A stretch of 25,249 nucleotides of DNA from a virus: IMG/VR virus record IMGVR_UViG_3300020430_000084, positions 1 through 25,249 of that record; one strand, written 5' to 3'. Below are positions 1-7,876 of this stretch, piece after piece. A program made the position numbers and the translations under genes. Position 1 is the first letter of the stretch. Every line of letters begins with the position of its first letter. Below the pieces are notes generated by a model. That model had not been told where the DNA came from and did not search any database. It saw nothing but the letters and a program-made list of their open reading frames with translations.

Positions 1-3000
1 TGATTGCAGCAGGAGCAGCAAACTGTTCTCTATATGAAACGGTACTAGCAGATGCAACGTTAATATCTACTTCATTTGGTACACTTGTAACCCTATAGAG
101 ATTGTTGTAGTCTGCAAATCTATCATCTCTAATTCCATCAATTCTAATTACATCATTAATACTATTATGAATGTGCTCAACTGTTACATAACCTCTGATG
201 TGTCCAGTGGTTGTACCCACACCGACAACAGCAAGAGTGTTACCAATACCATATGCTGAACCACCATCAACAATTTTAATGTTTGAGATAGAACCAGAAG
301 CGTCAATCTCAATGTTTGCAGTAGCAAACTTACCAGTAGTAGAACCAGCAAATCCAACTAAACTTGCATTGTACAGAGTTTGAACACTACCAGATCCATC
401 ACCATAATTTGCACCAACACTAGTAATACCAACCTTAGTGATATAGTTGAGACCATGGTCTCCAGATGTGGTGACAGTATGGGCAATTCCAGAAGAAGAT
501 AAAATCTCAACTACATTAATGCCAGATACGTAGTCTCTAGTTCTCTTATTGATAACCTCTTTAGTAAGACTATTCTTAGGATTATTGACCTCAGTCAGAC
601 CAAGAGGAGTAGGCAGAGCAAATGTTCTGGTTTGCTCAGGATCAGAGGTAGGATTATCTCTATCAAGTTGAGGGAATAGATTCTTAAGTGGTTGAGAATA
701 CCTGAGATTTTGGAATGGTGCAACCTGTGGTTGAGAATCCGCAGCGATCAGGGTCAGGTGATAAACACCATCTTTTGCATTAGGAATATATTCCTGAATC
801 TCATCCTTCTTATAAACAAACAGAGTCGTATTAAACTCTTTACGCTCAAATCTAGGAAGATCAGTGGTTCTGAAGTTAACGTTATTGCTAAATGTTCCTG
901 GATTAGTGCTCAATCCAACACTGAATGACTTTCTAGTTGGAGTCGCTGTGACATTAAAGACACCATTAAATCCAGTATTACCAAGACCAGTTGTATTGGC
1001 AGTAGATACAATGTTTGTAATTTTAACCTTAGATCCAACAGACAGATCGTGAGGAACTTCTGTTTTTATTGTTGCAATACCAACAATTGCATCCCACTCA
1101 GTGCCAGAGATAAATCTTGGGTTTCTAATCTCAGATGTATTTGAGAGAACTACTGGGCTAACATTTTTAAATTTAGCTACTTCATTATTTGTGAATCCAA
1201 CAGTAGTACTAGATTCTTGAAGTACGAATGAATCTTTTGGTGGTCTGCCAAGAACAGTAGAATCCTTGGGTACAACATATCTTACCTTGTAAGTAGTGTC
1301 TTCTAGACCTCTATTATCTGGTGTTCTGCTGATAAAGGTTTTTGGTGTTGCTTCACCAAGAACAGTTGTTCCAAGTCCAACTACAGTGTTGTAAATGTCG
1401 TTGTTATCATTTACATTGACATACCACTGATTAAAGGTAGTATCATACTGAATTGGGTGTCCAATGTCACCAGATTTTTTATCAGATACTCTGGATTCAA
1501 TCTGAAGAATACCACCTTTACTGTTTACAGTAACGGCAGACGCACTAATAGTATCATTCAGAGTCTGTGCAAGTTTAACCTGGTCACTGTTAATACCTGC
1601 AGTGATAGCATAGTAAACTCTGTTATGGTCAAGACCATCTGGCAGTTCACCATCATCACTAAGAATACGTAAAGATTCACCAGAATTAAACTGGTGAGGT
1701 TCAGTTAAAGTAAAGATGTTAGAGGTAACGCTATTAATACCAATAGCAGTTCTACCAACAGTAGATAGTTTTTTGGAGGTTACTTCAAAGACACCCGTTC
1801 CTTGGGTGTCTGGCATGATAATTTCAGCAGTTTTAGTTGAAGGTACATTATTTTCGTTAATAATGACCTTCAGTTTGTCATCTACCTTTGCACCAATTCT
1901 ATATCCCTCAAGAACAGAATTTGGTGGGACATTCTGATTAATCTCATTGTAGAGATATAATCTGTTATCATTGCCAACATCAATTGTTTTTTGTACGTCA
2001 ATCGATGCAAATTCAATTGTTACTTCATCCCCATCAAGTTTTTGGGGTGGAATGATATGAGTAATATATCCTGTGTCATCTCTTGGGAATGCATCATCTC
2101 TATATCCAGAACAGACAAGAGCTTTTGCACCAAAGTTAGAGTTAGAGTTTGTAACAGAGTGGTCACCACCAGACTCTGCAATGAAGTGATTCGCATATCC
2201 AATTGCGAACACAGACACCAACTGCAAGAATGAATCATTCGATGCTTTGATGTGGAAGTTTTCGTAATCTGGTTTGTATACAGCAGAGGTATCTGTGTGT
2301 AAGTTACTTACAGCAGTAGAATCTTCATATACACCAGAGATTGCATTATATTTTACAAATGCATTATCATCTTTTTGAAGTCCAATACCAGTAAACTGGG
2401 CAACAACCATGGACTTAAATCCAGCTGCCTTGCTACCATCAGCATGCAGACCGCACATACCGTATACAGAACGGAGTGAGCAGTTAAAGATATATGGAGA
2501 TGCAGAAGTTACCGAGTCAACAACAATGTTGAGCGTTGGAGCACCCGCAACAATAGATGGAAGTGCGTTTGTTGGTGGAGTAGATACTTCATAATTAATT
2601 CTGGTCGGTCCTTGGACCTCACTAATTACGAATGAACCATTATATCCACCTGTAGGTACACCCTCAATTCTAATAGGAGTATCTACATCAAGACCACCAA
2701 TAGCTTCAGTCAGTTCAACTTCAATAGTGGTGCTAGAGTTAACACCATCACCTGCTTTAATACTATTGATACCAACGTTCTCGCCTTTAGATCCAACGAT
2801 TCTAAATTCGTCAATCTTGGTTTGAATGTCAAGACCAGTGTCTGGATAGTCTGGAGCAATATCTCTTCCACTAGAAGGACCAAATACCAGACCAATCTTC
2901 TCATAGAAGATGTCCAGGTCAGTTCTTGTGGATGTATAATTTAAGAAACTATCATTGAATCCAACTGGATTTACACCATCAGCATACTCAAAACAAGTAA

Positions 3001-3643
3001 GTTTATGGTGAGAGAAGTTTGGAACAACCTTGGTTGTACTATAGTCTCTGAATACTGACGCATTTGGATCAGCATCAAAGAAGGTAAACTGGTAGAAGTA
3101 GCAAGTACCAGTTACACGGAAGAGACAGGTCCGTTCAATATCAGCATCAGAAGGATCAGGAACGAACATCGGGCGGATCTTCGTTTTACGAAGGTCCATA
3201 CCAACAATAGATGTACCACGGGGGAGAATCACACCACCGTAGACAGAATTCATCTTATAAAGATCATTCTGTGGATCATTAATATCAAAGTTAGTATCTA
3301 ACGTAAATTGAGTTAGATCATTTGATGTAGATCCGCTACGAGTTAACCAATTGTCTCCTGCTATTGGAGCATCGTGTACTGGAATCCATCCAGGTCTGTT
3401 ATCAATAAGGTGCTCACCAGGATAAACGATAATAGTTGTTCTACTGAACCTATCGTTATCCAGACCTTTTTGATAAGAGAATCTCGCTGCTTCTATGAGT
3501 GCTCTCTGGATAGTTTTGAAGGGTCTGACAAGGGAGTTACCCTGGTTTTCAATACTATCTGTAGAGTCAATACTAGAAGGATCAACGTAAAGGATATCAC
3601 CTTTACTATTCTTGAGGAAATTATCTAAGCGACTAAGACCCAT
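1..3643 (-). CDS. Large virion structural protein, C-terminal end outside the window
   Basis: This frame is open without a stop from the ATG at 3643 to the window edge, giving at least 1214 codons with the 3' end missing. The protein starts MGLSRLDNFLKNSKGDILYV. Its segment around residues 40-50 (RPFKTIQRALIEAARFS) is typical of the first coil of pectate-lyase-like beta-helices, in which a parallel beta-solenoid forms a fibre or spike. Further on it is rich in G, V, T, N and D with short beta-prone repeats (for example GGSAYGIGNTLAVVGVG near the window edge) and no membrane segment. I recognise the N-terminus as that of the very large structural proteins of T4-like cyanophages, probably a tail-fibre or baseplate appendage component. 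The exact role is inferred. An AGGA lies five bases upstream of the ATG and an AATAAATA late-type box 30 bases upstream, so it may be separately transcribed late. Confidence 0.8.
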   Translation of the reverse strand, partial: MGLSRLDNFLKNSKGDILYVDPSSIDSTDSIENQGNSLVRPFKTIQRALIEAARFSYQKGLDNDRFSRTTIIVYPGEHLIDNRPGWIPVHDAPIAGDNWLTRSGSTSNDLTQFTLDTNFDINDPQNDLYKMNSVYGGVILPRGTSIVGMDLRKTKIRPMFVPDPSDADIERTCLFRVTGTCYFYQFTFFDADPNASVFRDYSTTKVVPNFSHHKLTCFEYADGVNPVGFNDSFLNYTSTRTDLDIFYEKIGLVFGPSSGRDIAPDYPDTGLDIQTKIDEFRIVGSKGENVGINSIKAGDGVNSSTTIEVELTEAIGGLDVDTPIRIEGVPTGGYNGSFVISEVQGPTRINYEVSTPPTNALPSIVAGAPTLNIVVDSVTSASPYIFNCSLRSVYGMCGLHADGSKAAGFKSMVVAQFTGIGLQKDDNAFVKYNAISGVYEDSTAVSNLHTDTSAVYKPDYENFHIKASNDSFLQLVSVFAIGYANHFIAESGGDHSVTNSNSNFGAKALVCSGYRDDAFPRDDTGYITHIIPPQKLDGDEVTIEFASIDVQKTIDVGNDNRLYLYNEINQNVPPNSVLEGYRIGAKVDDKLKVIINENNVPSTKTAEIIMPDTQGTGVFEVTSKKLSTVGRTAIGINSVTSNIFTLTEPHQFNSGESLRILSDDGELPDGLDHNRVYYAITAGINSDQVKLAQTLNDTISASAVTVNSKGGILQIESRVSDKKSGDIGHPIQYDTTFNQWYVNVNDNNDIYNTVVGLGTTVLGEATPKTFISRTPDNRGLEDTTYKVRYVVPKDSTVLGRPPKDSFVLQESSTTVGFTNNEVAKFKNVSPVVLSNTSEIRNPRFISGTEWDAIVGIATIKTEVPHDLSVGSKVKITNIVSTANTTGLGNTGFNGVFNVTATPTRKSFSVGLSTNPGTFSNNVNFRTTDLPRFERKEFNTTLFVYKKDEIQEYIPNAKDGVYHLTLIAADSQPQVAPFQNLRYSQPLKNLFPQLDRDNPTSDPEQTRTFALPTPLGLTEVNNPKNSLTKEVINKRTRDYVSGINVVEILSSSGIAHTVTTSGDHGLNYITKVGITSVGANYGDGSGSVQTLYNASLVGFAGSTTGKFATANIEIDASGSISNIKIVDGGSAYGIGNTLAVVGVGTTTGHIRGYVTVEHIHNSINDVIRIDGIRDDRFADYNNLYRVTSVPNEVDINVASASTVSYREQFAAPAAI

Positions 3644-3673
3644 TTTATTCCTACAAATGCTTTTGCTATGATT

Positions 3674-3681
3674 TATTTATT
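3674..3681 (-). promoter_or_regulatory. Candidate T4-type late promoter for the large structural gene
   Basis: The minus strand reads AATAAATA, one base from the T4 late consensus TATAAATA, 30 bases before the ATG at 3643. It overlaps the TAA stop of the preceding 60-aa gene. The same box at similar spacing precedes other genes here, but A+T richness makes chance matches likely. Confidence 0.4.
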
Positions 3682-3859
3682 CATTCTCTTTTGCATCCAA
3701 AATATACTCCACAGTATTGGCAACATCATTCATTGCATCCCTAAGGAATGGTCTTTGACCAGAATGTTGTTCCGATGGATGAGATGAATTATGCTTCTCA
3801 GTACATAATGTCCATCTCCACTGAGACATGATATCAGAATACCAGAGATTTATTTTCAT
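3677..3859 (-). CDS. Small conserved cyanophage protein, 60 aa, unknown function
   Basis: This is a 60-residue protein starting MKINLWYSDIMSQWRWTL. It ends in a helical segment (LRDAMNDVANTVEYIL) and an acidic tail. The open frame extends further upstream to an ATG at 4015, but those extra residues lie over the coding end of the 371-aa gene and look unrelated, so the ATG at 3859 is chosen. This gives a 26-base overlap with the upstream gene. The Met at residue 11 would avoid most of the overlap but would remove the WYSD segment. I recall similar short W-rich proteins in cyanomyoviruses, without a known function. No signal peptide or membrane helix is visible. It is probably translated by coupling from the gene above it. 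Confidence 0.6.
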   Translation of the reverse strand: MKINLWYSDIMSQWRWTLCTEKHNSSHPSEQHSGQRPFLRDAMNDVANTVEYILDAKENE

Positions 3860-4949
3860 GCGTTGGGTTGCTCCAATCGTTGGTAAAATTGCGTATATAT
3901 TCAATCTTATCCAAGTTATCTTGACTATCGAGAACAAACTCCTCATTAGCAAAGTGGAGTTTAACTCTAAACGATAAAGCCAATTCCATAATATGATCTC
4001 TCCTTTCCTTGTCATCGGGTAGAGAGAATATACTGAACATCAGTATATGATCAACATTACCTTGTTTGATCAAATATTCCAAATACACATGATTTCTTCC
4101 CTCATTATCTCCTGTCTGGTGAGGGAATGTATATCCCATTCTATTGCAGTATTCTTTTACTGTCAATGTCTGGAAGTATAAATCTATGTATTGAGTTTTA
4201 AATCCCTCATATTCTGCATACATGACCACATTCTCATGATCAAGAATGGGAACCCTCCTTGACTGAATATCTGTGTCGCCAAGGATTCTAAAGTATGCTC
4301 CTGGCCATTTTCTATGAGGTTGTCCATCCCTCAACAGAACTCTAACATCAATACTTATCCTAGTCTTACCAGTTCTATTAGGAACTGCACCATGAATATG
4401 CTCTTGAGTGAACAGCAAAAACTGATTCTGAGTTATATTAACAGGTTTACAATGATTTAAACAAAAGCGTTGGAATCTCTGATAATTCCAGTTCTCTTTG
4501 AGACAACCCTCAGTAATCCATCTACTCTTCTCTATGTCAAGTATCTGTAGAGAATTTGATTCATATGCATCAGTAAAAGGTAACCATATCGTTCTCAACC
4601 CCAAACCATTACCAACCCATTGACCCTGGTGGAATGGAAGAACAGTACCAACCTTATCTTGATCTGGAACAGTTATTCTAATATTACCAAACCTCTGAAC
4701 TAAAACATCCGTTGGTAATAAAGGAAGAACTTTCTCTGCAATTAATTCATCAAATCTTTGATAAAATTCCGTGTCCGCAATATCCTTACCAATTTTTTTA
4801 ACTAAATCTCCAATTAATTTGTATGGCACAACTTCGTGGAGATACTCCAGATCAACTACATCTGGATAATATTTTTGAATAGACTTCAATATAATATCAC
4901 GGAAGCGATATTTATCAGAGTCATAATTGTGAATTTGTGCGTCAAACAT
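3834..4949 (-). CDS. Fusion of a 2OG-Fe(II) oxygenase-like domain and a sporadic carbohydrate cluster (LIC12192-type) domain
   Basis: This 371-aa protein has two recognisable parts. Residues about 1-205 resemble phytanoyl-CoA-dioxygenase-like 2OG-Fe(II) enzymes: H107 in LPFHQGQW, a core strand (residues 119-126), H184/H186 in TQEHIHGAV, and R197 in GKTRISID as the likely 2-oxoglutarate-binding arginine. Where HxD/E is normal, the first motif reads H107-Q-G109, so the acidic iron ligand is not obvious. Residues about 243-340 (YAEYEGF, TVKEYCNRMGY, MFSIFSLPDDKERRDHI, LHFANEEF) match my memory of the LIC12192 family found with such oxygenases in bacterial surface-carbohydrate clusters. A role in glycan or surface modification is inferred. 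The ATG lies three bases after the mature end of tRNA-Thr and no in-frame ATG occurs nearby downstream. The gene overlaps the 60-aa gene by 26 bases. Confidence 0.75.
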   Translation of the reverse strand: MFDAQIHNYDSDKYRFRDIILKSIQKYYPDVVDLEYLHEVVPYKLIGDLVKKIGKDIADTEFYQRFDELIAEKVLPLLPTDVLVQRFGNIRITVPDQDKVGTVLPFHQGQWVGNGLGLRTIWLPFTDAYESNSLQILDIEKSRWITEGCLKENWNYQRFQRFCLNHCKPVNITQNQFLLFTQEHIHGAVPNRTGKTRISIDVRVLLRDGQPHRKWPGAYFRILGDTDIQSRRVPILDHENVVMYAEYEGFKTQYIDLYFQTLTVKEYCNRMGYTFPHQTGDNEGRNHVYLEYLIKQGNVDHILMFSIFSLPDDKERRDHIMELALSFRVKLHFANEEFVLDSQDNLDKIEYIRNFTNDWSNPTHENKSLVF

Positions 4950-4952
4950 AAG

Positions 4953-5024
4953 AGCCCCCGATCTGATTTGAACAGACGACCTGAGCTTTACAAAAGCCCT
5001 GCTCTACCACTGAGCTACAAGGGC
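4953..5024 (-). tRNA. tRNA-Thr (anticodon TGT)
   Basis: A 72-nt cloverleaf is seen on the minus strand. The acceptor GCCCTTG pairs with CGGGGGC (two G-T wobbles), the D stem is GCTC/GAGC, the anticodon stem is GGGCT/AGCTC with loop TTTGTAA (anticodon TGT, reading ACA), and the T stem is GTCTG/CAGAT with loop TTCAAAT. The discriminator is T and CCA is not encoded. It begins two bases after the stop of the 181-aa oxygenase gene and ends three bases before the ATG of the 371-aa gene. Confidence 0.93.
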
Positions 5025-5026
5025 AG

Positions 5027-5572
5027 TTATTGTGACCCCATTGGTGGGTCCACAAGGTAGATGTTACCCGATATTGTTGTTCCTTCATTGCCAGACATTA
5101 CAAAGTGCTCTACCCAGGAAGGGAATATTATCATTCCACCAGGAGGAATCTGTGGAATAAAGTCCATAGGAATAGTATTGGCATACATTCCCCATTGATT
5201 CATGTATTCCTTCCTGGCAGGATTCATGAATACTGTTTTGGAACATTGAACAGTGTCATATATGATAAAACTCCACTGAGCACCAGAATGAATATGAGGA
5301 TCTTGCCAATCCTCTTTTTTATACACATTCCTCCATACTTGTCCAATAGAAAAAGATTTATCTGAGAATTGACCAATACAATCTGAGATTATAGATCCCA
5401 AGTACTGATATGATTCATCAGTTAAAGAATCTCCAGAGAGACTTGAGTTCACTCCACACAAAAATGATGGAGCAAAAGTAGGATTGTCATTAAATTTAAT
5501 CCTATCTAGATCAACTTGCTCAACAAAAAAAGGTACAGAGAACATTGCATGTGGTTCTCTACTGTAATTCAT
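5027..5572 (-). CDS. Putative 2OG-Fe(II) oxygenase, small phage type
   Basis: This 181-aa protein has the pattern of the 2OG-FeII_Oxy_5-type proteins common in marine phages. H93 and H95 lie in DPHIHSGAQWSFIIY, followed by a PPGGMIIFPSWVEHFV strand-turn containing H156 (the likely distal iron ligand) and a last core strand TTISGNIYLV. In family members a basic residue often precedes the final strand to bind 2-oxoglutarate; here the positions before ISGN are threonines, so cosubstrate binding may differ. The substrate is unknown. The start ATG overlaps the TGA of the upstream 100-aa gene as ATGA, implying translational coupling. The stop lies two bases before tRNA-Thr. It is one of three oxygenase-like proteins in this window. 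Confidence 0.7.
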   Translation of the reverse strand: MNYSREPHAMFSVPFFVEQVDLDRIKFNDNPTFAPSFLCGVNSSLSGDSLTDESYQYLGSIISDCIGQFSDKSFSIGQVWRNVYKKEDWQDPHIHSGAQWSFIIYDTVQCSKTVFMNPARKEYMNQWGMYANTIPMDFIPQIPPGGMIIFPSWVEHFVMSGNEGTTISGNIYLVDPPMGSQ

Positions 5573-7198: not shown

Positions 7199-7876
7199 TC
7201 AAAGTTCCAGCCACTGAGAAGGATGCGTTGATCCTTGATGGTAATCTGGGTTCTCAGGTTTGAGTGTAACTCTGACATCACCAGGAATAACAATACGCTC
7301 TCCCTTACGATCAGCAAACTGCTGAGTGAAGTGTCCAATCTTACTTGGGAAGATCACAACCGTGCCCTCCGTGGGAGTAATGGTATAAACATTACAGTTG
7401 TACTTATTGTATCCACCGATCAGATTCCTTTGAATCGCTGTGGAGAAGAGATCACCAACACACTCATTCGGATTCTTCTCTTGTGCAACACAGAATTTAT
7501 CCGAAGTTGAATCAGTATTCAAATAATACACAAAACTCAAATCAGAAGCATTGTGATTATGAGGTTTGACTGATGGAGTCTCATTATCTTTGTGGTATCC
7601 AACCCACGACTTGATGATATGATAATCCAACTTTGAATGATCAACGATCATACAGTCAAAGTAATTATCAATATGAGTTCTTAGTTCTTTGAAGAATGGT
7701 TTGCAGCATTCTTTTTGATGAGCAAAGATCCTACCAGAATATTCTGGACTCTCGTTCTCATACCCATTAAACCAATAGTCACGGAGTTCATCAAGATGCT
7801 CTTTGATAAGGTCGTGACACTCCACCTCCCCCTGATAAACCATCAGAGGGAATGCTTCATGTACCTTGTAGGTCAT
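7199..7876 (-). CDS. Putative 2OG-Fe(II) oxygenase, 225 aa
   Basis: This is a double-stranded beta-helix type oxygenase of the phage 2OG-FeII_Oxy_5 kind. Residues 104-118 read VKPHNHNASDLSFVYYL, giving H106 and H108 as candidate iron ligands. GTVVIFPSKIGHFTQQ supplies H182, and GERIVIPGDVRVTL supplies R194 as the likely 2-oxoglutarate-binding arginine followed by the last core strand. The N-terminal half (HEAFPLMVYQGEV) matches the usual opening strand of such proteins. The substrate is unknown; hydroxylation of a virion or host protein is possible. The ATG overlaps the stop of the upstream fibre-domain gene as ATGA, so it is translated with the spike/fibre genes. Confidence 0.75.
   Translation of the reverse strand: MTYKVHEAFPLMVYQGEVECHDLIKEHLDELRDYWFNGYENESPEYSGRIFAHQKECCKPFFKELRTHIDNYFDCMIVDHSKLDYHIIKSWVGYHKDNETPSVKPHNHNASDLSFVYYLNTDSTSDKFCVAQEKNPNECVGDLFSTAIQRNLIGGYNKYNCNVYTITPTEGTVVIFPSKIGHFTQQFADRKGERIVIPGDVRVTLKPENPDYHQGSTHPSQWLEL

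Follow-up and report, generated by a model that had tools for sequence, protein, structure and literature searches.

A phage fusion of TIGR04324-related and LIC12192 domains whose iron motif reads HxG instead of HxD

The gene described here lies in a 25,249-nucleotide stretch of viral DNA (the window; IMG/VR record IMGVR_UViG_3300020430_000084) and belongs to a conserved phage fusion of two known bacterial neighbour families, a 2OG-Fe(II) oxygenase-like family related to TIGR04324 and the LIC12192 family (TIGR04323). What is new is that the oxygenase half of this fusion carries HxG in its iron motif. The explanation that we favour over its rivals, with confidence a little short of even, is a catalytically active Fe/2OG enzyme with a two-histidine iron site and a carbohydrate substrate. 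Such an enzyme would hold Fe(II) in an N-terminal double-stranded beta-helix domain through H107 and H186 and 2-oxoglutarate through R197, the usual Asp ligand having been given up at what is now G109. The LIC12192 domain, with a predicted recombinase-like fold, would probably be a substrate- or partner-binding module, and the two domains would modify, most likely oxidise, one carbohydrate (perhaps a nucleotide sugar, a lipid-linked sugar or a surface glycan). In the cyanophage lineage the gene would be tail-fibre-side cargo, and its product may act on a host surface glycan or a virion glycoconjugate.

The fusion gene and its setting

The window comes from the tail region of a T4-like cyanophage; one baseplate stretch matches 405 phage records, nearly all of them Synechococcus or Prochlorococcus phages. 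The original prediction of a gene at 3834-4949 was borne out on the minus strand as one intact frame, and full-length viral relatives are likewise single frames, so that neither a frameshift nor an assembly join is required. The gene occupies a slot between a tRNA-Thr gene and a tail-fibre gene (Table 1), the latter matching phrog_529 (tail fiber protein) with about 54% identity to cyanophage tail fibres. The position of the tRNA-Thr relative to the fusion gene is kept in many relatives. The equivalent slot of the cultured phages S-SM2 and SynMITS9220M01 is without the fusion gene and holds one small ORF only, and tblastn searches of the phage collection with three representatives as queries gave no fusion-gene match in cultured phages. 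Because the ATG lies 2 nt past the 3' end of the tRNA, a possible ribosome-binding GGGGG would sit inside the tRNA gene (window 4949-4957); the arrangement in L009 is similar. The late T4 promoter TATAAATA has one match in the window, away from the fusion gene, which is no more than chance.

Table 1. Positions of the fusion gene, its domains and motif residues, and neighbouring features in the window
Feature	Position	Strand	Residues or extent	Basis and remarks
Tail-fibre gene	2..3676	-	start near 3643; open at window edge	directly downstream of fusion gene
Fusion gene P0001	3834..4949	-	371 aa	ATG at 4949, TGA at 3836-3834
LIC12192 domain (TIGR04323)	3894..4211	-	247-352	hmmscan NCBIfam, E 4.1e-15
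TIGR04324-related 2OG-Fe(II) oxygenase-like domain	4338..4907	-	15-204	hmmscan NCBIfam, E 2.1e-23
Expected 2-oxoglutarate-binding arginine	4359..4361	-	R197	invariant in 139/139 rows aligned there
Distal iron histidine	4392..4394	-	H186	invariant in 140/140 HxG rows
HxG replacing HxD iron motif	4623..4631	-	H107-Q108-G109	homologue alignment; H107 invariant in 140/140 HxG rows
tRNA-Thr(TGT)	4952..5024	-		ARAGORN and sequence; 3' end 2 nt ahead of fusion-gene ATG
2OG-FeII_Oxy_5 gene	5027-5572	-		profile match; tail region
2OG-FeII_Oxy_5 gene	7199-7876	-		profile match; tail region

The presence in a phage of an oxygenase-like domain fused to a LIC12192-type domain, as had been proposed, was confirmed by matches to both NCBIfam profiles. 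For TIGR04323 the cut-off of 55 bits is barely exceeded, with 55.8 bits in the whole protein and 58.9 bits for the C-terminal part alone, and most scanned fusions of other lineages miss it. The N-terminal half scores 83.2 bits against TIGR04324 (sporadic carbohydrate cluster 2OG-Fe(II) oxygenase), below the cut-off of 150 and within the range of 64-100 bits given by all relatives scanned. Pfam PhyH is a weak hint only (E 0.088), no PHROG profile matches the fusion protein, and Pfam Asp_Arg_Hydrox (the AspH family) does not match it at E<=1. The N-terminal half thus holds up as TIGR04324-related, but its label as an oxygenase is not safe because the Asp of the HxD...H triad is missing. With true TIGR04324 proteins it has in common the match over residues 15-204, the distance between the first iron His and a conserved Trp, and a LIC12192 partner; it differs in reading HxG rather than HxD, in being fused to that partner, and in its score.

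Codon comparison showed both halves to be under purifying selection, with dN/dS about 0.03-0.20 where dS was measurable. Synonymous divergence from the window gene was unequal between the two halves in L001 (0.27 and 0.07) and L007 (0.40 and 0.84), suggesting recombination within the fusion gene.

The HxG iron site

The metal site was examined in an alignment of 140 non-identical HxG homologue rows, in which the R197 and D201 columns cover 139; a role for R197 in binding 2-oxoglutarate would be expected from the superfamily. In place of the canonical HxD/E...H facial triad the fusion protein reads HQG...H, and because the triad is incomplete the domain may be inactive or run another reaction. 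True TIGR04324 proteins of bacteria have HSD or HAD, and the Pseudomonadota gene pairs retain HxD; the fused clade and the KSB1 proteins have HQG or HTG at identical spacing. Two of the IMG/VR scans had used patterns containing HQG, which could bias recovery toward HxG, and the collection was therefore rescanned with a C-terminal-only pattern. HxG was still near-universal, and search bias was rejected as its source. The one exception, the viral fusion L219 (496-1608), reads HKD within an otherwise normal frame, and its nearest relatives, about 66% identical, have HQG. This HKD appears to be a natural reversion to HxD.

The 140 rows offered no replacement carboxylate peculiar to the HxG clade. 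E183, three residues ahead of the distal His, is Glu in just 85% of them. D201 is the only fully conserved acidic residue, yet among the aligned HxD rows that column holds D, D, N, N, N, N, N and S, the remainder being gapped, and one gapped row, the Azospirillum StrG-like L084, reads TRVSLDFRF by direct sequence. With Asp also in two HxD rows and in L084, D201 does not set the HxG clade apart. A tree built without L219 clustered the HxG rows with weak support (83/82), placing the KSB1 proteins beside the viral rows and a Roseivirga protein among them.

The AF2 model of the fusion protein (mean pLDDT 91.8) gave 223 Foldseek matches in the PDB at E<=0.001, and the best 50 of these 223 are all Fe/2OG enzymes, at low query-normalised TM-scores of 0.27-0.36. 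The CurA halogenase domain stands first among the matches listed (E 4.9e-8), which also include PtlH and SyrB2 at low TM; PtlH, a hydroxylase, has the higher TM. The window protein has no sequence relative in the PDB. When the family profile was compared with PDB sequences, the best match was PtlH (E 0.0019), and CytC3 gave E 1.6.

Distribution and genomic context of the fusion

Four IMG/VR scans returned 37, 83, 226 and 114 relatives, with overlap, of which at most 80 per scan were taken on. Every complete viral copy found in these scans is fused in a single frame, and no separate or frameshifted phage version was found in them, in keeping with the fusion as originally described. The C-terminal-only scan recovered 86 ORFs with both domains and 0 with the C-terminal domain alone; earlier viral cases with that domain alone had been cut at contig ends. 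Tandem fusion genes were seen in L218 (1653-3949) and L221 (1178-3474), where the C-terminal domain of the first copy is divergent and FVDE replaces FANE.

In most bacteria examined TIGR04323 is a stand-alone protein, whereas here it forms the C-terminal half of the fusion. Of the 398 sampled Pseudomonadota genomes, six have TIGR04324 over the cut-off, and it is in these six and no others that TIGR04323 also exceeds its own, in the adjacent gene; in the KSB1 phylum adjacent separate genes occur in 2 of 82 genomes (G003 and G772). The fused form was present in one bacterium, on a Roseivirga contig (L086), and 240 further genomes sampled from its order gave no match. As L086 is nested among viral rows, transfer of the fusion between phage and bacterium is possible. 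L086 lies nearest to L270, whose contig includes a DNA polymerase stretch resembling that of Flavobacterium phages. Bacterial adjacency, taken with the fusion, supports one joint function of both domains and would assign it to the TIGR04323 and TIGR04324 families alike. No paper on TIGR04323, TIGR04324 or LIC12192 was found in the open-access literature searched.

Gene context was surveyed in 106 viral loci, all non-identical and 7 kb or longer, whose flank lengths differ. In the lineage of the window a tail-fibre homologue lies nearby in 29/29 loci, and an epimerase or sugar-nucleotide gene was detected near the fusion gene in 0/29. In the other viral lineages a sugar epimerase is nearby in 43/77 loci (a raw count, before any comparison with a background rate) and a radical-SAM gene in 23/77, and a tail-fibre homologue was detected nearby in 0/77. 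Both cellular loci inspected (L086 and L087) are polysaccharide clusters with an ABC-2 transporter, a GT2 glycosyltransferase, a GDP-mannose dehydratase and epimerases, which agrees with the earlier description of the two halves as neighbours in bacterial surface-polysaccharide clusters. A link of the phage protein to carbohydrate is suggested by this context of homologues at 33-39% identity.

Possible chemistry and the C-terminal domain

The protein can be read in three ways besides the one we favour. In a Fe(II)/2OG halogenase, G109 would leave the iron open to chloride or bromide, and the enzyme would halogenate a sugar or a substrate linked to a glycan. In Fe/2OG halogenases the Asp position is usually taken by Ala or Gly, so that halide can bind, and retention of both His and the 2OG Arg alongside HxG is a pattern used for picking such enzymes (PMC8407142; PMC11186838). 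The fusion protein has this HxG/A...H motif and the Arg, in the role expected from its superfamily; HxG is nearly fixed in the clade and its Pseudomonadota relatives have HxD; and CurA and SyrB2 are among the structural matches listed. With CurA Hal, SyrB2, WelO5 and AdaV it shares a related predicted fold and HxG or HxA with two His, but no significant sequence match, and halogenation here is a candidate only. Human AspH, however, is a natural two-histidine HxG hydroxylase, FIH with Asp changed to Gly keeps some activity, and the authors of the AspH work want experimental tests rather than function assigned from the triad (PMC10947486). The metal site HxG...H is common to AspH and the fusion protein, although the latter lacks the AspH-family Pfam match. 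The low TM-scores, the higher TM of PtlH and its better profile match than that of CytC3 also count against a halogenase, and on balance we think it unlikely. We do not think that the Foldseek matches (CurA, PtlH and SyrB2) and the HxG precedents discriminate a halogenase from a hydroxylase.

The loss of the Asp ligand with no HxG-specific invariant acidic replacement would also suit a non-catalytic pseudo-oxygenase, retained for binding or structure, yet invariance of H107 and H186 (140 rows) and R197 (139 rows) across distant lineages would be unexpected had metal and 2OG binding been lost, and HKD in the normal frame of L219 would suit a site that remains functional; a non-catalytic domain seems improbable to us. 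A third reading, in which the substrate is the tail-fibre protein of the phage and not a glycan, would fit the constant tail-fibre neighbour in the lineage of the window, the two further 2OG-FeII_Oxy_5 genes in its tail region, and the lack of the gene from the equivalent slot in S-SM2 and SynMITS9220M01. That neighbour was not detected near the gene in the other viral lineages, where sugar genes are often near, and the cellular homologues lie in polysaccharide loci; moreover, the position may say nothing on substrate, because slots beside tRNA genes often carry inserted cargo. We regard a tail-fibre substrate as very doubtful and prefer an active two-histidine enzyme acting on carbohydrate.

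Even with hydroxylation as its reaction, that enzyme would add one more to the natural Fe/2OG enzymes with two histidines. A bolder and rather doubtful proposal is that the HxG clade comprises widespread viral Fe/2OG carbohydrate halogenases with a recombinase-fold module, in cyanophages and other environmental phages. We know of no Fe/2OG halogenase with a sugar substrate, and phage proteins that share a halogenase-type metal site offer a ready test set. VirX1 is flavin-dependent and hence of another enzyme class than Fe/2OG. As the halogenase of cyanophage Syn10, it provides a precedent for cyanophages that carry a halogenase gene (PMC8407142).

The C-terminal part, which had been put forward as LIC12192-type, matched that profile when tested, and its model (pLDDT 83.6) resembles serine recombinases. 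Recombinases or resolvase-like entries make up 16 of the first 17 Foldseek matches (best E 1.9e-4), TM against serine-recombinase catalytic domains is about 0.5-0.65, and the closest folds include TP901-1 integrase and gamma-delta resolvase. A serine-recombinase profile aligned weakly to the domain with hhalign (probability 30%, E 5.5e-4), and no sequence match was found in the PDB. The LIC12192 domain is predicted to be a serine-recombinase catalytic-domain fold without the catalytic residues, to our knowledge the first structural hypothesis for this family. The Ser and Arg motifs of the recombinases (YxRxS and DRLxR) are absent by inspection, and comparable places read Y-A-E-Y-E or Y-A-G-W-N and S-x-x-S-L-P.
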